From positions 496,001-560,000 of the forward strand of contig JAIWZP010000012.1 in assembly GCA_025201375.1 (NCBI GenBank): a stretch of 64,000 bases of DNA. Reading direction: 5' to 3'. Positions 19,098 to 35,899 of this stretch are shown here, in pieces. Position numbers and translations under genes: made by a program. A model generated the notes under the pieces. It saw nothing but the letters and a program-made list of their open reading frames with translations. It was not told where the DNA came from and did no database searches. The DNA is from Gongronella butleri (lineage: Eukaryota; Mucoromycota; Mucoromycetes; Mucorales; Cunninghamellaceae). Numbering within the stretch: position 1 is the stretch's first letter; every line of letters starts with the position of its first letter.

Positions 19098-19993
19098 TTA
19101 CGTGCATTAGTTTGTTTAGTGAAGTATGAAACTCGAGTAAAATGATTCTTTACAAACTGTCCAAGTAGCTGATCCGTGCTGTGAGGAATGAACATTTTTG
19201 CAATGGCAGGGAAGACGAATGGAAATTATTCGTTTGCTGAAATGATTGATAGTGTACAGAACGAGCCTCCTGGTCAAAAGTATGTGCACAAATATCTATA
19301 TAAATTTCATGGATGTCGCTACATGAAAATCGCTAGTTGTTACTTCATGCTGCTTCCGTTTTCGCTGCTATTTGCAGCTGCACTGTCGTCAGCTGCCAGT
19401 TTGAAGCCTGCTGATGCTGACAGTCAACACAACATTGGCAACGATAATAATGCTGCTGTGGATCTGTCGACATTCCATTCTTTTGATAAAAATATAACGG
19501 ACAAGACTCTGTCCTTTTATCTGGAGGCACCTGCTCATCTTCAAGTTGTCGACTACAAAGATGGTACAAGAAAGTACAAAAAAAAAAAAGACGTTACAAT
19601 TTATTTTTAAATTATTTTTCGTAGGAGGAGACACATTTTATATATTCGACAATGGCAAAGTCATTGGAAGTAGTTCACCGGTTTCTGGCGGCGGGCTTGA
19701 TCAGCGTGCCTATGCTGCCACACCGGATGAAGCCTGGGAAAAGGCCGACAACTTCGGGCGTGGGGAATACGTGTTAGAAAAGGGGCCTCATGAAATTTCC
19801 ATCAAGGTGGCCAATTCAGAATATGGCGACGGAACCGGTGCCATTCGCGTAGTGAAAGCACTGGATGACCAAACTCTATATTCCTCCTCAGACAAAGGCC
19901 TTGGCACCTTTGGAAATGGTCATCGAAAATTCAGGAAGCATTATGAAAAAGAAGACAAGGATGACAAGGATGACAAGGATGACAAGGATGACA

Positions 19994-20032
<39 letters not shown>

Positions 20033-20090
20033 ACGACAAACATGACAAAGACGATAAAGGGGATTGGAAACACAAAAAGACACACTATAT
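19098..20090 (+). repeat. Right arm of about 1-kb inverted repeat
   Basis: Reverse-complement partner of 17490-18486. The shared upstream sequence begins near ACGTGCATTAGTTTG and continues through the intron; differences are sparse substitutions plus length change in the Lys/Asp codon run. Confidence 0.9.
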
Positions 20091-23000
20091 CAAGGTGCTA
20101 AAAAAAACCACCACCACCACCACCACCACTAGATCGAAGTCAGTTTCATTAACAGGAGGTGACAGAGCTGGCACAACGACAATCACTGATGGAAATGGAA
20201 ATGAAGTTATTGTGATCACCACGACTCCTGGTCCCACCATTACGACGACCACAACCAGACGCCTATCTGTTTCTCTCACTGGTGGTACTCAAGCTGGTAC
20301 CACGACGATCACACGCGATGGTACCGAAGTTGTGGTTGTCACCACTGTTGCTCATCCGAGAACGAAAACGTCTACTACCGTGCAAGAAAAGTCAATTTCT
20401 CTCACTGGTGGTGCTCAAGCTGGTACCACGACCATCACCAATGATGATGGTATTGAAGTTGTGATCATCACCACCACTGCTCATCCAACAACCACGACAT
20501 CTACTACCGTCCGAGAAAGATCGGTTTCTCTCACTGGTGGTACTCAAGCTGGTACCACGACGATCACACGCGATGGCACCGAAGTTGTGGTTGTCACCAC
20601 TGTTGCTCATCCGAGAACCAAAACGTCTACTACCGTGCAAGAAAAGTCGATTTCTCTCACTGGTGGTACTCAAGCTGGTACCACGACCATCACCAATGAT
20701 GATGGTATTGAAGTTGTGATCATCACCACCACTGCTCATCCAACAACCACGACATCTACTACCGTCCGAGAAAGATCTGTTTCTCTCACTGGTGGTACTC
20801 AAGCTGGTACCACGACGATCACACGCGATGGCACCGAAGTTGTGGTTGTCACCACTGTTGCTCATCCGACAACGAAAACGTCTACTACCGTGCAAGAAAA
20901 GTCGATTTCTCTCACTGGTGGTGCTCAAGCTGGTACCACGACGATCACCAATGATGATGGTATTGAAGTTGTGATCATCACCACCACTGCTCATCCTACA
21001 ACGACGACATCTACTATCGTCCGAGAAAGATCGGTTTCTCTCACTGGTGGTACTCAAGCTGGTACCACGACGATCACACGCGATGGCACCGAAGTTGTGG
21101 TTGTCACCACTGTTGCTCATCCGAGAACGACGACGTCTACTACCGTGCAAGAAAAGTCGATTTCTCTCACTGGTGGTACTCAAGCTGGTACCACGACGAT
21201 TACCAGGAACGATGGCGTTGAAATTGTGATCATCACCACCACTGCTCATCCTACAACGATAACATCCACTACAGTTCGAGAACGATCTGCTTCTCTCACT
21301 GGTGGTACTCAAGCTGGTACCACGACGATCACACGCGATGGCACCGAAGTTGTGATTGTCACTACTGTTGCCCATCCGACAACGACAACGTCCACCAGCG
21401 TCAGAGATAAATTAATTTCTCTCACTGGCGGTACTCAAGCTGGTACCACGACGATCACCAATGATGAGGGTGTTGAAATTGTGATTATCACTACGCCTGT
21501 TCACCCTACAACGATAACATCCACTACCGTCCGAGAACAATCTGCTTCTTTCACTGGTGGTACTCAAGCTGGTACCACGACGATCACGCGCAATGGCACC
21601 GAAGTTGTGGTTGTCACCACTGTTGCTCACCCAACAACGACGACGTCTACTACCGTGCAAGAAAAGTCGATTTCTCTCACTGGTGGTACTCAAGCTGGTA
21701 CCACGACCATCACCAGGAGTGATGGCGTTGAAATTGTGATCATCACCACCACTGCTCATCCTACAACGGTAACATCCACTACCGTCCGAGAAAGATCTGT
21801 TTCTCTCACTGGTGGTACTCAAGCTGGTACCACGACGATCACACGCGATGGCACCGAAGTTGTGGTTGTCACCACTGTTGCTCATCCGACAACGAAAACG
21901 TCTACTACCGTGCAAGAAAAGTCGATTTCTCTCACTGGTGGTACTCAAGCTGGTACCACGACCATCACCAATGATGATGGTATTGAAGTTGTTATCATCA
22001 CCACCACTGCTCATCCAACAACCACGACATCTACTACCGTCCGAGAAAGATCTGTTTCTCTCACTGGTGGTACTCAAGCTGGTACCACGACCATCACACG
22101 CGATGGCACCGAAGTTGTGATTGTCACCACTGTTGCTCACCCAACAACGACGACGTCTACTACCGTGCAAGAAAAGTCGATTTCTCTCACTGGTGGTACT
22201 CAAGCTGGTACCACGACGATTACCAGGAACGATGGCGTTGAAATTGTGATCATCACCACCACTGCTCATCCAACAACCACGACGTCTACTACCGTGCAAG
22301 AAAAGTCGATTTCTCTCACTGGTGGTACTCAAGCTGGTACAACGACGATCACCAATGATGATGGTGTTGAAGTTGTGATCATCACCACCACTGCTCATCC
22401 AACAACCACGACGTCTACTACTGTCCGAGAAAAGTCGGTTTCTCTCACTGGCGGTACTCAAGCTGGTACCACGACGATCACACGCAATGGCACCGAAGTT
22501 GTGATTGTCACCACTGTTGCTCACCCAACAACGACGACGTCTACTACCGTGCAAGAAAAGTCGATTTCTCTCACTGGTGGTACTCAAGCTGGTACCACGA
22601 CCATCACCAATGATGATGGTGTTGAAGTTGTGATCATCACCACCACTGCTCATCCAACAACCACGACGTCTACTACCGTCCGAGAAAGATCTGTTTCTCT
22701 CACTGGTGGTACTCAAGCTGGTACCACGACGATCACACGCGATGGCACCGAAGTTGTGGTTGTCACCACTGTTGCTCACCAGACAACTATTCTGACAAGT
22801 TTCTTGACAACAATTACCCAATCTGTTGGAACTACGACAACGACAATTACGACGCAAGCAGCGTCAACTGTGACTAGTGTCGCGACGGCGACCCCGACTC
22901 CATCAACTATCGACAGTGTGACGATTAGCACGGACACAGACTGCACTACAAGCACAACAACAAGGACAGCAAGTACTACGACAACTGCAACTACATTAGG

Positions 23001-24102
23001 ATCGACATCGACTGTTGTCAGCACAAGTACTACCATAACGCTGTCGTCCACAACGACAACAACGACTATCACCAATATAGAATCGTTACCTACTACTACA
23101 ATGCCATCGGGTGATGAAAGCTCAGAGTCGACGACACCGATACCAAGTACATCGACATCGTCATCGTCGTCGGTACCGACCACTACATCGCCAACGTCGT
23201 CGTCGGAAACATCCACTACATCGTCGTCGTCGTCATCATCATCAACAACTTCTGACATACCTCGATGCCAATCACGTATCGGATATGGCGTATGGTGCCC
23301 ACCAGATGCTGGGTCCTTGTACGACTTTGATCCTAAAGAAATTGCAAATGGCGTCTATACCGGAGATATTGGTGTGATTCGGCAACAAAATATCAACAAC
23401 ATTGATGCTGTTGCTGTCAATAAGGACAGTGTTTGGTATATGGGATCGTATGGAAACCAGTTTAGATTGGGCAACGACAGTACTTGGCTTTCAACAGGTC
23501 CAACCCGAGCTGGTGTAGTCTCAGCCTGGGGTTCTTTGCCGGACGGAAGATTCGTATGGGCGAGTAGAGATATCGCCTCCCTACCAGCCACAAAAGGGAT
23601 TGCATATTTGCATGATGCCCAGAGTGTTGTTGGCTCAGAGATAATTACTTACACGGACGACCCAAGCAATGCAGAGCCTTTATGTAATATCGGAGGTTTT
23701 GGTCTAGCAAGCAACTGCATCGATGACATTGCATTTGACGGCAATTCATACGCTTGGATTGTGACGTCGAAAGGAAATTTGTACATTTCGACCCGAAGAC
23801 AGGATACAAGTCCCGGTGGCCCAGTCAAGTTGATTGGAAAGATCCCCTTAAGCCCCGGACTGGGTTATAGCGGCATAGCATTCGACAACGAAGGAAATGT
23901 CTTCTATTCATCATACTGTATTGGCTGTGCATTTATTGCAAAAGCACCAATGAGCGATCCTCTGAATGTGACCAAAGTTACAGGCATCACGGTCGGAGCA
24001 GGTTCACTAACCCCAGGAAGAGTACCGGATTTTGGTGATTTGGCCTCCTGTGCATATCCTGTAACAGATATGACGAAAGCACCTTTTAATTTTGCTGCAT
24101 AA
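19323..24102 (+). CDS. Giant secreted Thr-rich repeat protein (adhesin-like), right member of inverted pair
   Basis: Exons 19323-19563 and 19625-24102 (intron 19564-19624) encode 1572 aa. Start chosen at the signal-peptide Met, as in the twin gene; a TATATAAA stretch lies about 20 bases upstream. Signal peptide, family domain and Lys/Asp linker are nearly identical to the minus-strand twin. The central region instead has 21 units of about 42 aa built on SLTGGTQAGTTTIT, alternating R-D-G and N-D-D-G forms. A Thr/Ser-rich stalk follows, then a C-terminal domain with IGYGVWCPPDAGSLYD, GVVSAWGSLPDGRFVWASR and IAFDGNSYAWIVT, clearly homologous to the twin's C-terminus but much more diverged than the N-terminus. 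That contrast points to recent conversion of the N-terminal arm. Extracellular or wall function inferred. Confidence 0.86.
20138..22778 (+). repeat. 21 tandem coding repeats of about 127 bp, dimer period about 255 bp
   Basis: The nucleotide core GGTGGTACTCAAGCTGGTAC recurs in nearly every unit. Alternating single-codon variants define the 255-bp dimer; one place has three similar units in a row, a sign of unequal exchange. The repeat number equals that of the twin gene although the units differ. Confidence 0.9.
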
Positions 24103-26270: not shown

Positions 26271-27550
26271 AATTAGCCAAGTTGTTAATGAAGGCACGCA
26301 GGTTCACTAAAATCTTTTGAATGCCCCTTTGGATGACATTTTCTACACAGCATTTATATTATGTTTGTACATTCTTCGGAATATTAAAAATGGTTGCGTT
26401 GTTGGCCTTTAGTATTCACAAAATCAGCTGTGGAATGCAAAACCGAGAATTTTATGCAATTAAATAGTACATAGTGCAAACAAATAAACAAAAAATGGAC
26501 ACAGACCACTAAATTTAACCTCGTCCACGTTTGCAAGTGGTCTGCAGCAATACGTGGACGCAGAACGCAACTGACCCTCCGCTGGTTTTTACCTTTTTAT
26601 TTGGGGAGGGGCAAGAAGTCAGAATGTGTCATAGACGGTCCACTCTAGGGCTCCAGCTTGCGCGTCAATGGCTGTGAGGCCGTCTGCGACTTGCCTGCTA
26701 GTGGACGCACTAACCTGGCGGCTAGGGCTAGGCCGTGACAGTCGCAAGTTTGCGCTGAATGCGATGCAGGTAATTTTGAGTGGGGTCGACCATGCAGATG
26801 GCTAGCTGAATGCAAAATAGTGGAAATATCGAGACTTTTGGCATTTTCGAGTTTCAAAAAAATCGGGCGGACCTGTCTTGAGCACTGGGCCATACGCAAT
26901 AGTTCGTGCCGTGACGCATTTTTCATCGGCAGGCGAGTAGGCTGTAAATTTTTTTTTTTTGGAGGTACGTACATCAGCAGGCCGGCAAAGTCCAAAAAAC
27001 ATGTTTTTTGGTTTTTAAAGAGCAAACGTGTACGGTACGTTTTTGTGCAGTGCTATCATTGAAAAAAATGATAATATGCGGCAATTTCTGTCCACTGAGA
27101 TTGAAATATAGAGTCAAACAGTTTAATTTCGTATACTGTAACTCCAAAAAAAAAAAAAAAAAACGAATAAAAAACGCGTTTTTGTGCGTTTTTCGGGCGA
27201 TGAATCATGGATAGTACTGTATACTCTACAAAGGGCAAAAAAAAAATTTTTTTTTTTTTACAAACGAATAGAAATCACGCTTTGCCTTTGCAGCAATGAC
27301 CTTGCAATACTGTAACTGTACCGTGGTACATAGCAAAAAAAATGGAAAATAAAAAACATCTGATAGGCTGATTAATCCAGAATACTAAAGTCAGGAAAGC
27401 TGTTGGGGCGTTTTTTTTTTTTTTCTGAGCTATTTTGCCTTGCCCGTTGTTTGTGCGGTTTGCTGAACCCATTCAGGACACTTTAAGCTTGTAACGGCTC
27501 CTGATAAGCTGATATATAATTTATTACGGTATGTCATTTTGTTATGCCAT
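26271..27550. other. Repeat-bearing intergenic region
   Basis: No gene seen. Holds one copy of a dispersed repeat (listed separately) and several A/T homopolymers, for example at 27148-27165 and 27238-27259. Confidence 0.6.
26735..27005 (-). repeat. Dispersed non-coding repeat, copy 1
   Basis: In reverse complement it aligns with 58345-58603: shared blocks include GACTTTGCC, TTTACAGCCTAC, GATGAAAAATGCG-like, CGATTTTTTT, AAAATGCCAAAA and GGTCGACCCC. Similarity is spread over about 260 bp. No coding capacity or clear termini. Confidence 0.7.
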
Positions 27551-28701: not shown

Positions 28702-31700
28702 ATGTCGCGTCCTTTTGTCCAGCAAGTCTTGGCTGGGACGCGGCGACAAGCGCCTGATGATGACGCACAACAAGCTCCATGTAAGTTTCCTTTGCAGCTG
28801 TGCGTTCAGGTCCTTACCTTTTTTTTTTTTTTTTTTTAGCTTTCAAGCGCCAGAAGAAAGGGAGAGATCGCATTACTACCAAGCGAAAGCAGTTCCTCGA
28901 CGAGTTGGAGAGCAAGCAATCTGGCCGCAAGGAGCACCAGGAGGCGATGAAGGACGGGCGAGCCACGGTGGACTCGCCGTGCACCACATGCATCGTGGCC
29001 AGTCTCGATTTGTCTGAGGAAGCGCAACATATGGTCCGTGTGCATATCGGCCTGGACAATGAGCCCGATGACAATGACGGAGCGGACATTGAGCTACAAG
29101 AGGCTCATCTGGAGCTAATGGATGCGGACGAAGAATATGCAGCCATTGTTCGTGAAGCTGAGGGCCGCCTCGAGATTGCCTATACCCACCAGCGCACCTC
29201 AAGCCGCCTCTGTCCCAGCAATGTGCCACGACAGCGCGCGCTCACCAAGCAACGCGCTGGCGGCGTGACAATGAAGACGTTCACCATCAAACATGGCCTG
29301 GCCACCTTGCTCAAGCCCGATATTCCTCAAGAAGACAAGGACACGTTCCTCAATGGCGTCCAGACTATTGTGGACCTCCACCGGCGCATGGTCATCCACG
29401 CAATGGCCTTTACCCAGTATTTTGTCACTGCCTGCCTCCAAGAGAACCATCACGTGCCGCGCGCCCTTTTTGACATGACGTTTTTTTTTCGGCATTTTCC
29501 AGCTCATCGTCGGCAATGATTTCAGCAACAAGTCCAAGTACACCGACGCCCAGCGCGCTATCATTGTCAACGAGTTTCACAAGTTTCGCCAGCGCCATCC
29601 GGCAATCACTATCCAGCTCGCGCCGCCCGGGCATCGACAGCCACCCGTCTTTGCGGATGTCTTGCCCGCTGCTGCCCGGCAACTCGCCACCGCCATGACG
29701 AATCACGTTGTGGAAAATTTCGACAGCTTCTTCATCAATTACCTCCAAGGTCGTCTTGCGCGTGAATTGGCACCTGGCTTCAAGGTAAAAAAAAAAAAAA
29801 AAACCATTTTTATTGATTAGGATGTCAAGCCACACGTCACACGCGCCTACGCAGCCTACGTGTATCAAGTCTCCGTTCACGACGACGTTCATTCTGCTGA
29901 CAAGCCAACTTGCAAAATTGATGGCTGCTTGAAAGCGCGATTGGAGGAACTGACAAGCGCTTTGGTCGCGGAAACTGAAGCTGTATGGCGACGGGTCAAT
30001 GGCTACATCCTCGAGGAAAAGCGCGAGATTGCCGCGGCAAAGCAAGCACGTGAAGCTATCGTTGCGGGCCAGAAACAAGCTCAGCAAATGAGGCTCGCTG
30101 GTCAATTTGGTGCATCTTCATCTACTGGCCCACAAGACATGGAGGTGGACGACCAGGGGAGCAATGTTGGCGAAGCCAGTACATCCACAGGCCCACAAGC
30201 CATGGAGATCGACGGTGATCAAGGCAATCTTGGCGAGATTGACTCTCAGGCACACATTGGCCCATTAGACGCCGTCACCATCATGTCCTCAGGCGAGACC
30301 CCAGCCATCGTACGTGTCACGACATCCTACATCTCGCGGCATCCCCAGTTTTTTCTGAAAGTTATGCATGAAATCTTGGCCACCATGGAGTCTTGGAATG
30401 ATGGTGATACGCTCCCGTCCTCAGAGCCGCAAAACAAGGTATCGTTTTCCTGGATGCGCCGTGAATTGGAAAATCTCGTGGGCGACGACTGGAAAAGGCT
30501 CAATTATCGCAAAAGAACTCAATTGACGCGCACCATCGTCATGCTGGTCAACGACAAGATTATGCCGGATCCTACACGCCTTCCCAAATCTTTCACGCGC
30601 GAATCCATCGCGGAAATTCAGCAACTCGTATTGGACACGCAGAAAGAGATTCATGCTGGGATTTTTATGCCACCGACGGTCCATGTCCGGCCATCGCTGC
30701 GACTCTTCACGTTGGTGCCGGTTCCATCAATGCATCTACGTTACGTCCACTTCAACCACCGCGCTCTCCAAGCATTCTTGGGACATTTTGGCTTGAAACA
30801 ATACAAAAAAGGCGACAACGCGCTTCCACCGGACGGCTCTCCGCACCCAGTATTTGATCTCTTTGACATGTCCAAGCTGAAGCGGTAAGAGTAGAAAGAA
30901 AAAAAGAAAAAGAAGCTGACGCGGTATTTTTTTTTTTGATTAGGTGTGCCGGTGCGGCCTTTGAAAATGCTTTTGACACGGACGGGTTTGCGACGTCGTT
31001 CACGTTCAAGCGTCCCAAAGGCGATGCTCCTCCGTATTTGACACTGGACAAGGCGGTCAAGTGGCAATTGAGGCAATGCCGAGCCTGGGGCGTGGATCCA
31101 GGCGTCAATGATATCTTTGTGGCTGTGGACGGCAGCTCCTACGCATCTGGGATTTATTCTGCCGCGTCATCAAGCCTTCCACCCCTCGCTGAGCGCGACT
31201 TTGACGTCGATGGGGACGTGATGATGACGACAGACAGCCATGACCGTCCTGCACGTCGCCGGCCACGCTCTGTGTCTGCTGCTCCGCTCTCTGTGCAAGA
31301 CATTGAAGCGCGGTCTTTGCCTGATCGTCGCAAAAAGACGCGTTCTTTGTCCGTGGGCGTCCGTCCTTGTGATGCAGGTGACCCGAAGCTTCCTCGCTCG
31401 CGCCGCGATTATATTAGCACGCACTCGACGCAGCATGAAGTGCGCAAGTTCAGCCCCCACGAGTACAACCGGCTGGCCGGCATCCCCAGGGTCAATGCCT
31501 GGCTCGAGAACAAGAAGGCGGCGCGAGGCATTACGTACATCGAGAGCCGGATACCCACGGCAAGGACCGCACGCGTCGACCGCGTTCATCACCGTGTCGA
31601 ATTTCTCCTAGCCTCGCTGCCCACCCTCCTTGCCTTTTACGACATCGAGCACCAGGCCAAGCGCTTCTCTCTCTATCGTGGCAAGCAGCGAGCCAACGCT

Positions 31701-32302
31701 GAAATGGTCAATATCCTTGTCGGCGGAGGAAAGAAGTACGCGAGAATAGATCAAGATGCCCAGCGCCGGGAGTCGCCATGCACCGGCACGACAAAGTATT
31801 TTTTTTTTTGACACGCAGATGGCGCCCTGCTCCATTTTCTCGCAGTCCACCCGGTGTGACGCCACTGATCTTCCTTGGCAATGGCAATTTTGGCCGTCGC
31901 ACGTGGCGTGGCAAGCCGCACGGTCACGGAAAGAAGCTGTGCAAGCTTCTCGGCAAGGCACAGCAGCAAGGTCGCCTCCTCGTTGTCTCCGTTGACGAGG
32001 CATGGACGTCTCAAGTGTGTTCGCGCTGCGGCCAGCGTGGCATGCGCAACATCCGTGTTCTCCAGCCCATTGGACCGTCGCACAAGCTGCACGGTGTGCT
32101 CAAGTGCAATTCTTGCAGTACACTCTGGCAGCGTGACACCAATGCCGCGCGGAACATCCACGCCATCGCCACCCTCAACGTCCTCGCCCGCCAGCTGCCC
32201 CATGTCTTTAAAGAGGCTAATCCGACCTCACGTCCCCTCGTTTTTACAAGCCCCAATGGTGTGCCCCCCTTCAAAACTCCCTCCTCTCACGCTCAGCACT
32301 AG
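28702..32302 (+). CDS. Fanzor: eukaryotic TnpB-like RNA-guided RuvC nuclease
   Basis: Exons 28702-28780, 28840-29453, 29503-29784, 29821-30884, 30944-31795 and 31846-32302 encode 1115 aa. The C-terminal RuvC-like core is complete. RuvC-I is WGVDPGVND (Asp731). LIFLGNGNFG follows, then VVSVDEAWTSQVCSRCG with the alternative Glu1015 typical of Fanzor. The zinc finger is Cys1022/Cys1025 with Cys1051/Cys1054 (CNSC), and RuvC-III is QRDTNAARNI (Asp1061). Known Fanzors are programmable DNA endonucleases guided by a non-coding RNA made from the element's flank. The first 680 residues are a long, partly acidic N-terminal region (one Ser/Gly/Pro linker near residue 420) that I cannot assign. Weak points: the intron at 29454 uses GTGCCG as donor, and the intron at 29785 is only 36 nt. 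No frameshift or stop was found. Confidence 0.88.
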
Positions 32303-33046
32303 AAGCTGTTGCAATTTACCTTTGGTAAGTCTCCAAAAAAAAAAAAATGGCCTGCCTTGTTCAGGAAACTAGACAACTTAGTAAACGCGATCCTCGTTCT
32401 GTGATTGGCTCACATTCTCTTCTTTTTTTCTGTTTAGTGTATCTTTATTTTGCAGAGGACACGCCGATGAACATCCCCAGGAATTGCGCTTAGAGGGTCT
32501 TAAGGCGTCCTCCCTGGATGGAAAATTTAATTTGGGATCGAATGATGTCACTTTCTTGCCACCCACTCTTAGTAAAGAAGCGAAAAATTGCATATTTACC
32601 TCCAAAAATCAAATCAGCCAGTATGTCGTGAGTGCGATTTCTCAAATAGCGAGAGCGACCCTGTCGACGAGTTGACGTCTGATTTTCTGAATTTTCAAAC
32701 TCGTATTGTTGATGATGAAACAAAGCACGACGAAATTGACTTGCAATTAATGTGTAGCGCGATCCTTGCATTTGCTTGTGAATTGTTTTTTTTTTTTTGT
32801 ATTGGATACGTTGCTTTTGCTTTTGTGTTTTGTGTGCTTTCATTACCAGCATCGCAGGTTTCAATGATCTGTTGGTGAACTATCGTATGCAATCGGCTTG
32901 CCGTGTCCTTTACCTGATTGGCTGGCGCCCTGGGCCTACAGCATAAAAAAAGGAACCGCTCGGTCAGACATTCCTCCACTTTCTTTTTGTGCTTTTTTTT
33001 TTTTTTTTTTGTCTCTTTTTTCCTTTTTCCTTTTGTTGTCAGACTT
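32303..33046. other. Fanzor 3' flank and intergenic region
   Basis: No gene seen. A guide (omega) RNA would be expected to come from Fanzor flanks, so the first few hundred bases are a candidate; no structure could be proven by eye. The segment near 32580-32632 resembles 56890-56945 (shared CCAAAAATCAAA and TCAGCCA blocks), suggesting another dispersed repeat. Confidence 0.45.
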
Positions 33047-35899
33047 ATGGATTCGCCGATCGAGGTGCTGCGGATAGAGCAGAATGCAGTATCCAAGGAG
33101 CTGAATCGATTTCGTGCGTGTGATCCTGTGACCCGGTGTTTCTATTGTCGTGAATGGGCGCTTTATATCTACAAGAAGCATTTTGCGTGGAATGCAAAGA
33201 CGCAAGAGGATATGCAGCTTGATCAAGAGGCCCAGGATATGATGTCGACGGGCCACTATAATATATGTATGCTGCAGCACGTGGGCGGTTATGTCAAGCG
33301 GAAGGAGCGGTCACCCAAGCTGTCTGAGCAGTTTGAGAAGCTGCTGGAAGCCAAAGCGCGCGAGGAAGACGACGACGATGACAATGACGACAATGACGAC
33401 CAAGAGGACCATAGCGGTCATGAGTCGACGACGCGCATGGGCCAGGGCAGCAGCCAAAATAGCAACACATTGACACAAGATATCATTCAGGCGTGCTTGC
33501 TATGGCAATCGTTGCCGAGCAGTTTGTCCGGGCTGCCATCGATCTTTGAGCCGGTGGAATTCAACCCATTTCCCGACTTTATTCCGTTGGAAGACGATAT
33601 CAAGGCGCCAGCGCAGCTGCTGGAACCGCTGATTATTGAGCGACAGGCGCTGTGTCTGCCATCCGAGGGGTTTTATCTGCTAAAGAACCTGACAGGCGAC
33701 ATCTTCATCTCACACACGCAGCCGACATGCCATCACATCAAGCCCGAGGACCCGACACCCACGGACTTGGAAGTGCAGCGACAAATCTTAAACGAGGATC
33801 TGCGCAGCGTGATTGCCAAGGTGCTGGAGGCGATGGACACACGGTTGCTTGCTTCTTGGCGACCACTGTTGGATTTTTTACACCACCTGGCGCAGCTTGA
33901 GGATCGACGCAATCAGCTCATGGGTCAGCAATGCCAGGCAAACGTTGATGATTTTGTGGCGCGACAAGGTCTACCCTCGCTGGCGGAGGTGTGGCAACAG
34001 GCGATGACGCACAATGGCAGCAGGGAAGAACGGACCAAGGTGATTGACGCGTATCTCGACGACGTGGCCGGTCACGTGCGCGCGTTTTTGCACGACTTTG
34101 TCAATCCGCGCCTGGTGCAAATTGGCAAACTCATCCAAGACCTGTGGGATCTCGTGGGGCCGACGATCCAGCACATGGCCGAGCGCATGGCATGCCACGA
34201 GGAGCGCGACAAGGGCAATGCCGAAAATTGCAGGGCCGTCTCGCAGTCGCTCAAGGGTTTGTACTCGACAAAGGAGGTCGACGAGGCAATTGATCGCATC
34301 AAACATGCCATGGCCGAGCGTGTCGATGAATATATAGATCTCGTGCACCAAGTCAAGGCTTTGCACACGTCAGCCGCTGGATCGACCGCTGCCACGGCGC
34401 CGCCATCGTTATCGTCATCATCGGGCACGCCAGGCATCGACAGCGGATTGAAAAAGCGACTTAAGCGCCTGGATTCGGGCTATGCGTCGCTCCGGCAATT
34501 TTTCCGCAGCGAGGTGACGCAAAAGATCTTCCCGGAGACCCTGTTTTGCAAGTTTACGCTGGTGTGTCTTGGTGCGCTCATGCAAGAAGGCGAGGTGATG
34601 GAGGCGATGATCATTGAGACCGAGGTGAAGAAATTTATCGAGAGCCACCGTGATCTGGTAAAGCGGCGTCAGGCTCTCGTTCTGCAATTTGAGGATGGCG
34701 TCCAGGTGGGTCGGCGCGAACTTGCCGGCATTCTTGGTAAACTGTTTTTGAAAGAAGGGATGCGCATCAAGGGCGAAACCTTGGCTCTCAAGCGTCAAAA
34801 CATGCTTCTCAAGTCCATGGGCGTTGGCGACACGACGACGACAGCTTCTTCTTCCTCTTCCACCACCGCAAGCAGCAAAAAGAAAAAGAAGAAAAAGAAG
34901 AAAACCGCCGCTACCAGCAAACCTTCGACTCCTTCCCTCACAGCCACCACTACCATTACCACCGACGATGCCCCAGATTCACCTGTGCATGATGAAAATT
35001 CGGAATTGACTGGCTTGGACGACGCCAGGAACGACCAAGTGGAAGATGACGAGGAAGAAATGGTGGATGCCGCAGCAACCACCTCCGCCGCCGCCGCCGC
35101 CGCCGCAGCTCCAATGCCGGATTCAGATGCCGAAAAACCGCCTCTGGTAACAAAGGAGCCAATGACTCGGACGAATAACGTGTCACCACGAAAAAAGGCG
35201 TCAGCTGCCAAGGACGATCATCCTCCCTCTTTGCCATTGCCTCGATCAGCCTCCAGTGTCACACGTCCACCACCGCCTGCATCACCTGCATCGTCGGCAT
35301 CACCGACACGCCCGTTGCCCGCAGAATCGTCCTCTTCACCGCGCAATGGGTCCACAACTCGCGCATCACCACGCCATTCCACGTCGTCTGCCCAGTCTCG
35401 CACGCCACCACCGCCATCGCCAGCCACCACGTCGCGTCCACATGATTTGTCACCGAAAAAGCCGGCGAGATCGGTGCAACACCTACCTCAGCCCCCGTCT
35501 CCGCCTCGACAGCCAAAGCAGCCTATACCCGTCGAGCCCAAATCGTCAACGTCAGATACCACCACTCAGATTGCCTTGCTTCAGCAGCAGATGCAGCAAT
35601 TGCAGCAAGAGAAGCGCGAGATGCACGACGCCGCCGAATTGATGCGAAAAGACCTGGCGCAAGCTCACGACAAGATCAAGGAGCATGAACAGCAGAGCCG
35701 TGATCAGCAACAATACATTGACCACCTGGAGAGCCAGCTACGCCACGCGCAATTGTCTGCGCAGGCGCCCATCACTGCGCCAGCGTCGCGTCTCTCGCTG
35801 AATAGCAATCACGCGTGGGTCACTGCCGGCTTTGGAAATCAGGACCTCTTTGAAGGCATTAGATACGACATTTTTGACAGACGGATGAATCAATCATGA
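33047..35899 (+). CDS. Large coiled-coil protein of unknown function
   Basis: Single exon, 950 aa from MDSPIEVLRIEQNAVSKELN; the frame stays open upstream through a T-rich Phe run, but that part looks like 5' UTR ending in an acceptor-like CAG. Regions: a conserved-looking N-terminal 100 residues with Cys-rich CFYCREWALY; an Asp run (about 110-125); a helical middle with LASWRPLLDFLHHLAQLEDRR; a segment with FPETLFCKFTLVCLGALMQE; then a Lys run, an Ala run, Ser/Pro-rich low-complexity sequence and a Gln-rich coiled coil near the C-terminus (QQQMQQLQQEKREM). No enzyme motif. Not recognised. Convergent with the bZIP gene. Confidence 0.7.
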   Translation: MDSPIEVLRIEQNAVSKELNRFRACDPVTRCFYCREWALYIYKKHFAWNAKTQEDMQLDQEAQDMMSTGHYNICMLQHVGGYVKRKERSPKLSEQFEKLLEAKAREEDDDDDNDDNDDQEDHSGHESTTRMGQGSSQNSNTLTQDIIQACLLWQSLPSSLSGLPSIFEPVEFNPFPDFIPLEDDIKAPAQLLEPLIIERQALCLPSEGFYLLKNLTGDIFISHTQPTCHHIKPEDPTPTDLEVQRQILNEDLRSVIAKVLEAMDTRLLASWRPLLDFLHHLAQLEDRRNQLMGQQCQANVDDFVARQGLPSLAEVWQQAMTHNGSREERTKVIDAYLDDVAGHVRAFLHDFVNPRLVQIGKLIQDLWDLVGPTIQHMAERMACHEERDKGNAENCRAVSQSLKGLYSTKEVDEAIDRIKHAMAERVDEYIDLVHQVKALHTSAAGSTAATAPPSLSSSSGTPGIDSGLKKRLKRLDSGYASLRQFFRSEVTQKIFPETLFCKFTLVCLGALMQEGEVMEAMIIETEVKKFIESHRDLVKRRQALVLQFEDGVQVGRRELAGILGKLFLKEGMRIKGETLALKRQNMLLKSMGVGDTTTTASSSSSTTASSKKKKKKKKKTAATSKPSTPSLTATTTITTDDAPDSPVHDENSELTGLDDARNDQVEDDEEEMVDAAATTSAAAAAAAAPMPDSDAEKPPLVTKEPMTRTNNVSPRKKASAAKDDHPPSLPLPRSASSVTRPPPPASPASSASPTRPLPAESSSSPRNGSTTRASPRHSTSSAQSRTPPPPSPATTSRPHDLSPKKPARSVQHLPQPPSPPRQPKQPIPVEPKSSTSDTTTQIALLQQQMQQLQQEKREMHDAAELMRKDLAQAHDKIKEHEQQSRDQQQYIDHLESQLRHAQLSAQAPITAPASRLSLNSNHAWVTAGFGNQDLFEGIRYDIFDRRMNQS

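Follow-up and report, generated by a model that had tools for sequence, protein, structure and literature searches.

Fanzors are eukaryotic RNA-guided nucleases carried by transposons, and the published accounts of them, which here and below are cited from excerpts of the papers concerned, give as their signature a DPG motif plus a Glu located six residues before a CxxC (PMC10711439). In those accounts most Fanzor1 proteins measure 600–700 amino acids (aa; PMC11423790), some Fanzors reach about 800 aa (PMC10711439), and the guide RNA of SpuFz1 corresponds to a region of roughly 80 nt between the stop codon and the right inverted repeat (PMC10432273). We analyzed a stretch of 64,000 nt (G000:C15:496001-560000; hereafter, the window) from a 33.0-Mb, 110-contig assembly of Gongronella butleri, in which stretch a Fanzor gene occupies positions 28702–32302 of the forward strand. 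In the reading that we favor, and that we consider fairly probable, this gene is a probably inactivated member of a giant Fanzor family housed in CACTA-like elements that end in a putative spliceosomal intron. The basis of that reading, as far as sequence can provide one, lies in the protein motifs, the open paralog models, the mobility of the relatives, and the splice-like signals at the terminus.

The motifs identify the window locus as a real Fanzor gene, encoding a RuvC domain with the alternative Glu plus a four-Cys TNB domain. In the protein obtained by reading through the coding pieces, DPGVND begins with its Asp at residue 747—about 745 residues thus lying ahead of RuvC-I—and is followed by VDEAWTSQVC at 1038, CSRCG at 1047, CNSC at 1076, and RDTNAARNI at 1085. 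An earlier note, written from the letters of the window alone, had called the gene a Fanzor by reason of its RuvC-I Asp, alternative Glu, RD, and four-Cys motifs; all of these are encoded, and a Pfam search returned the family PF07282 (TNB) with an E of 1.1e-12. In the window copy and in each of the five paralogs that we modeled, the alternative Glu (RuvC-II) stands six residues ahead of the first zinc-finger Cys and RuvC-III reads RDxNAARN, while the DPGV of RuvC-I recurs in 5/5 of the paralogs; PF07282 was matched by all five members of an alignment containing the window copy with L009, L012, L014, and L022. The spacing between the RuvC-I Asp and the [TS][TS] pair amounts to 295 residues in the window copy, 281 in L009, 277 in L014, 272 in L013, and 266 in L022, so that two of the five proteins counted fall inside the range D-X(125,275)-[TS][TS] given in PMC3627910. 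From the size of the protein and its non-IS607 context we infer a Fanzor1 rather than a Fanzor2.

PF07282 was found at 20 places of the genome, 19 of them over the cut-off, and the 19 loci other than the window were fetched for comparison. At 17 of the 19 some piece of the window protein finds a match, and at nine its first N-terminal piece does. We joined five paralog models by hand from the genomic sequence (22 GT-AG introns of 61–133 nt), all of which are open from ATG to stop: L009 (1,153 aa), L012 (1,158 aa), L013 (1,388 aa), L014 (1,353 aa), and L022 (1,385 aa). Left unmodeled were L010, L015, L016, L018, and L023, as near-copies of others (in L015 the frame changes within the large exon); L017, as distant; and L020 and L021, as partial matches. 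The window protein is 39–41% identical to the four paralogs of the alignment, and an Ala-rich stretch ahead of RuvC accounts for most of the extra length of L013, L014, and L022. The N-terminal region, which the earlier note had singled out as unusually long, holds up as such because the five models have it likewise; by the sequence, then, the long N-terminus is real and family-wide. The family, moreover, exceeds the Fanzor sizes described in the excerpts of PMC11423790 and PMC10711439, and, if this is true, it would carry the reported size range well past about 800 aa and add an N-terminal region that is conserved.

The roughly 745 residues preceding RuvC gave no significant Pfam or PDB sequence match. 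At an E of 0.1 none of the five aligned proteins matched a Pfam family besides PF07282, and in the first 239 residues of the window protein the one match, to Selenoprotein_S (E 0.076), scored 13.3 bits, below its cut-off of 29.8. A PDB sequence search at E values up to 10 returned 15 matches, 12 of them in the TNB region (the best at 2.2e-4, GtFz1 at 0.018) and just three outside it (0.078, 1.6, and 2.3), none of these three being significant. In a search of a large protein database none of the 7,995 and 8,000 candidates attained an E of 0.001 or below, so that no relatives were found outside this genome. Within it, the N-terminal region is also matched at C32:188121, C1:751425, C66:15942, and C72:5708, with no PF07282 hit there, which places may be decayed copies or the region alone. 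L025 and L027, in turn, represent a second mobile family: 93% identical to each other over 3.4 kb, they have PF07282 hits that contain stops, and they do not match the window protein.

The sequence comparisons place the relatives in mobile elements. Near-copies occur at separate loci, namely L010/L013/L016 (95% identity), L014/L015 (90%), L022/L023 (97%), and L017/L018 (98%). The six elements whose terminal inverted repeats (TIRs) could be placed measure 3.8–5.1 kb, and in 6/6 tested the TIRs agree at 12–15 of 16 positions, constituting CAC(T/A) inverted ends of about 15 bp, as in the L013 TIR, CACTGCAAAAAAAAA. The right ends finish in AGTG in 12 of 13 instances, L014 being the exception; the left ends begin with CACTG (L013), CACTT (L014 and L015), or CACAG (L010, L016, L017, and L018), and no CACT-type terminus was recognized at the left ends of L022 and L023. 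Among nine elements with the left end assigned by comparison of copies, an exact 3-bp target duplication flanks four (L010, CAA; L015, GAT; L017, ATA; L018, AGA), and the 3-bp flanks of L013 and L016 agree at two of the three positions. The CACTA/EnSpm superfamily has CACT(A/G) termini and a 3-bp target duplication.

The elements are nonetheless CACTA-like, and not CACTA. The transposase family PF02992 (Transposase_21) is found at nine places of the genome, eight over the cut-off, and at none of the Fanzor loci, PF02992 having been the one transposase family scanned for; its lack would also be expected of a non-autonomous element. In L052, a PF02992 locus of 3.6 kb cut by a contig end, no end resembled those of the Fanzor elements. 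The Fanzor was the sole gene recognized in the transposons of the intact relatives. A query with the L013 left end found six places, five of them Fanzor elements and the sixth C24:432108; the stretch C24:432108-432220 is left-end-like, has no PF07282 hit, and may be a solo end or a decayed copy. The L013 and L012 right-end DNA queries each found three places, C55:48390-48446 being one of them; there a right-end core of the Fanzor type stands with no PF07282 hit, again possibly as a solo end or decayed copy. Certain left-flank letters are shared, GCTTCA before the 3-bp duplication in L017/L018 and CCA in L010/L013/L016, which letters may be a target-adjacent motif or element sequence.

The right ends, which the earlier note had not reported, also have the signals of an intron. 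After the Fanzor stop a GTAAG or GTAAA donor occurs in 16/16 copies, 13 having complete right ends and three (L011, L019, and L021) lacking the right terminus; the count leaves aside L025 and L027, with no match to the window protein, and L024 and L026, with a partial match. In all 13 complete right ends the donor is followed by a CT(A/C/G)A(C/T) branch motif, a poly-T, and a YAG, and in nine of these the terminus was placed by comparison of near-copies. Scored by matrices derived from the 22 coding introns, the terminal donors reached 5.9–11.8 versus 6.9–11.4 for the coding ones, and the acceptors 2.5–9.8 versus −1.9 to 15.9, the lowest terminal acceptor score being reached by 0.54% of all positions. 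The branch motif is present in 13/13 terminal and 11/22 coding introns, and the putative terminal introns span 61–126 nt. As good a donor 59–133 nt upstream was present for 4,219 (9.6%) of 44,000 anchors drawn at random from the window and the loci; given about seven lineages, the agreement of the donors is far beyond chance, though any exact P would be too optimistic because the donors were chosen by eye. Conservation had a mean z of 5.1 in the terminal intron versus 2.3–4.5 in the internal introns. From the stop to the donor there are 17, 22, 28, 32, 42, and 68 nt in the window copy and the five models; an intron less than 50 nt after the stop would not trigger decay of the mRNA, and five of those six distances are under that limit.

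The right ends themselves were also used for searches. A profile built from five paralog right ends, with the homopolymers trimmed, matched the window at 32339–32429 (E 0.0097) and L011 (E 0.028), its best non-terminal match having an E of 1.4. The pattern ATTGGYNRCTRAC-N(4-24)-TTTTNYAGTG has three matches genome-wide, the right ends of L009, L012, and L015, and the reversed control has none. The core pattern, GGGGAGCATAG followed after 15–35 nt by TTGGYNRCTRAY, occurs at seven places—six Fanzor right ends from three lineages plus C55:48402-48446—all with a 22-nt spacer and again with none for the reversed control; the exact 11-mer GGGGAGCATAG with that fixed spacer lies inside the intron of three lineages (L009, the L013 group, and the L022 group). 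In the right ends of L009, L012, L017, L018, and L019 only a few bases separate an AATAAA from the GTAAG donor, so that polyadenylation and splicing might compete there.

Several observations weigh against an intron terminating a CACTA-like element. The donors were picked by eye and only afterwards scored; the 13 copies amount to about seven lineages, some of them related, so that the counts are not independent; and, since the poly-T and GCAGTG also form the TIR, the acceptor by itself is weak evidence. The terminus was inferred for the window copy, L009, L012, and L020; the TG that directly follows the YAG in 12/13 is GT in L014; and in L017/L018 about 165 nt separate the stop found from the donor, a distance that may include a further intron. 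The right ends of L017, L019, and L021 escape the right-end profile, and the middle of the terminal intron is weakly conserved. A consensus fold of the right ends contained no pairs (the alignment places L017 poorly), and of the helices that all five sequences can form the longest, four pairs of TTGG with CT(A/G)A, reached a P of 0.04 against shuffled columns or 0.56 if one sequence was allowed to fail; being nearly invariant, that helix brings no support from covariation. As to the transposon, L014, L022, and L023 do not show the 3-bp duplication, an exact match being absent in five of the nine testable elements; similarity overruns the assigned left end by four bases in L010/L013/L016 and by eight in L017/L018; and the CAA after the terminal TG is common to L010/L013/L016, both of which observations speak against a simple reading. 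For the window copy, finally, no left end was recognized in the window, the right end alone having been.

By analogy with the described systems, the Fanzor would be expected to bind an RNA comprising the transposon right end and the adjoining stretch of the host, and to cleave DNA that matches it, for instance an emptied donor site. The interval from the stop to the terminus measures 119–183 nt in the window copy and the five models, and the putative intron, whose acceptor would lie 2 nt inside the right terminus, takes up 62–84% of it. Since the putative intron thus fills most of the interval expected for the guide RNA, splicing would delete the scaffold and join the 3′-untranslated region (3′-UTR) to host DNA: in a spliced transcript the Fanzor 3′-UTR would continue, after two element bases, into the host flank with the right-end RNA lost, whereas an unspliced one would retain both the right end and the flank, as a guide requires. 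From these signals we infer splicing, a guide RNA from the right-end segment, and a competition between the two outcomes. In the TnpB IStrons of bacteria, splicing and guide RNA are reportedly in conflict, according to a 2024 paper; the deletion of the expected guide segment suggests a spliceosomal counterpart of that conflict. Our proposal, which we advance tentatively and with less than even confidence, is that each transcript would end up as a guide precursor if left unspliced, or else as an mRNA whose last exon comes from the host, so that splicing might set the nuclease activity according to the landing site. If this is true, the balance that an RNA-guided nuclease of a eukaryotic transposon strikes between mRNA splicing and guide-RNA production could be tested directly in this family.

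The same right ends might instead belong to an ordinary Fanzor1 whose N-terminal lobe is long and divergent and whose 3′-UTR intron is plain and constitutively spliced, the guide RNA being made otherwise or no longer, which alternative we regard as possible, if on the unlikely side. The coding introns share the same anatomy in what is an intron-rich genome, the right end has no covarying helix, and the terminal intron is only modestly more conserved than the internal ones; against this alternative stand the acceptor, which in 13/13 complete right ends falls at the transposon end as placed or inferred, across lineages about 40% identical in protein, and the retention of GGGGAGCATAG with its fixed spacer inside the intron of three lineages. 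Another alternative, improbable in our estimation, is that the right-end motifs serve a transposase as DNA sites, their likeness to splice sites being a by-product. The part of the poly-T and GCAGTG in the TIR fits such sites, as does TGCTAT, which by eye occurs in the left ends and, inverted, in the right-end core; yet beyond the TIR no significant left-right inverted similarity was detected in six elements (P 0.27–0.94), so that simple transposase sites leave the donor and core uncovered. Nor would they predict a donor 61–126 nt upstream of the terminus in every complete right end, and in the left 80 nt of the nine elements no donor scoring 5.9 or more is present.

The window gene itself, described in the earlier note as apparently intact, is probably not so, since its reading frame shifts within a run of nine T's. 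The same protein stretch is unbroken in 9/9 paralogs examined (L009, L010, L012–L016, L022, and L023), and an L009 N-terminal query, when matched to the window, splits at the run into two pieces whose frames differ. If the other introns are kept as they are, the frame can be closed at the second junction by any of 11 GT-AG joins, and the Asp731 numbering of the earlier note follows from one of these. That much of the six-exon frame proposed there can be reproduced, but the join in question has a non-consensus donor and, like the other ten, cuts out part of HVPRAxFxxxFFxxxFQL, whose specified residues are invariant in the window copy and the four aligned paralogs. A GTAAG or GTAAA donor is found in 0/11 of the joins versus 21/22 of the introns of the paralog models. 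Since the joins are non-consensus and remove invariant residues, a frameshift in the T run is the simpler reading, and the window gene is probably a broken copy. That it is intact after all, whether the T run has been misassembled or a short intron with non-consensus sites is truly spliced there, strikes us as doubtful: in-frame joins do exist, and the codon-position divergence between the window copy and L009 (0.45/0.38/0.65) resembles that of the intact pair L009–L014 (0.44/0.37/0.66), which resemblance implies a constraint lasting until recently and favors either a recent lesion or a misassembly; but, besides the defects of the joins, the four other coding introns of the window copy (59, 36, 59, and 23 nt) are all shorter than the 61–133 nt of the paralogs, and the copy has no recognized left end. 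The features of the locus are collected in Table 1.

Table 1. Features of the Fanzor locus, in window positions.
Feature	Position	Strand	Remark
Fanzor exon 1	28702..28780	+	ATG; GTAAGT donor at 28781
Fanzor exon 2, to T9 run	28840..29480	+	Exon 1-2 piece matches 9/19 fetched loci, 37–41% identity
T9 run, frame changes	29481..29489	+	One frame throughout in 9/9 paralogs examined
Fanzor exon continued, other frame	29490..29784	+	
Fanzor exon, N-terminal region	29821..30884	+	
Fanzor exon: RuvC-I (DPGVND) and long insertion ahead of RuvC-II	30944..31795	+	
Putative 23-nt intron	31796..31818	+	Last coding intron in the five paralog models, 67–106 nt
Fanzor exon: RuvC-II alternative Glu, four-Cys TNB, RuvC-III RD	31819..32302	+	Stop ends at 32302
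Putative terminal 3′-UTR spliceosomal intron, 113 nt (GTAAGT...CTCAC...poly-T...TAG)	32325..32437	+	
Putative branch site CTCAC	32409..32413	+	
Inferred transposon right terminus (TG after putative 3′ splice site)	32438..32439	+	By analogy with paralog right ends

Around the gene, the stretch 26746–27052 was considered as an element end and ruled out because it is dispersed in the genome: a repeat of about 300 bp, it has at least 40 other matches of 71–78% identity (40 scored of 814 candidates), and five Fanzor loci among those fetched contain it as well (L011, L019, L022, L023, and L025). Just outside the inferred right end, positions 32476–32645 have partial matches of 71–83% at five other places and may be a small repeat. 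Farther downstream, starting about 0.6 kb from the inferred transposon end, an open frame of 950 codons (33047–35899) has no Pfam match at 0.01. On the other side, a tandem array with a period of 129/255 bp (20265–22769) lies inside a Thr-rich stop-to-stop frame of 1,534 codons (19498–24102), which frame we take to be adhesin-like from its appearance.

With the Fanzor1 proteins SpuFz1, GtFz1, and PpFz1 the present family shares the RuvC/TNB motifs and the carriage by transposons; it differs in size, the models having 1,153–1,388 aa as against the typical 600–700 aa (PMC11423790) and the upper sizes of about 800 aa (PMC10711439), and in having introns, whereas SpuFz1 is a single open reading frame (PMC10432273). 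The word "intron" has no occurrence in the main texts of PMC11423790, PMC10711439, and PMC10432273; nor do "spliced," "CACTA," and "EnSpm" occur in the main text of PMC10711439, "spliced" and "CACTA" in that of PMC11423790, or "CACTA" in that of PMC10432273, where "splic" appears once, in a reference. The Fanzor1 elements of Mucor, Rhizopus, and Phycomyces (PMC3627910) likewise comprise several families per genome, some of them with no transposase, but are described there with duplications of 9 bp (MuDr-like), 11–12 bp, or 6 bp, those observed here, in some copies, being of 3 bp; "intron," "CACTA," "EnSpm," and "splice" do not occur in the main text of that paper. Among the open-licence papers listed, as represented by titles and the beginnings of abstracts, we found no Fanzor element with a terminal intron and no CACTA-borne Fanzor; the right-end intron anatomy of these transposons would appear to be new.

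To CACTA/EnSpm elements the family bears a likeness in its CACT-type right ends and, in some copies, in the 3-bp duplications, although the PF02992 transposases of this genome are located elsewhere than at the Fanzor loci. With IStrons it would have in common the combination of a transposon with an intron (PMC4227781); there, however, the intron is a bacterial group I ribozyme, whereas here it is putatively spliceosomal and the whole element would not be spliced out, and a scan of the window alone gave no group I intron match in Rfam at the gathering score. An introner in the sense of an element removed whole as an intron was not supported, since none of the nine elements has a donor of the required score in its left 80 nt and the donor that is present follows the Fanzor stop. 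Some introners do bring their own 3′ splice site, together with TIRs and target-site duplications (PMC9860276), and in that respect the elements described here resemble them; but introners become introns of host genes (PMC9860276), whereas in the present family the putative donor lies inside the element itself, downstream of the Fanzor stop.

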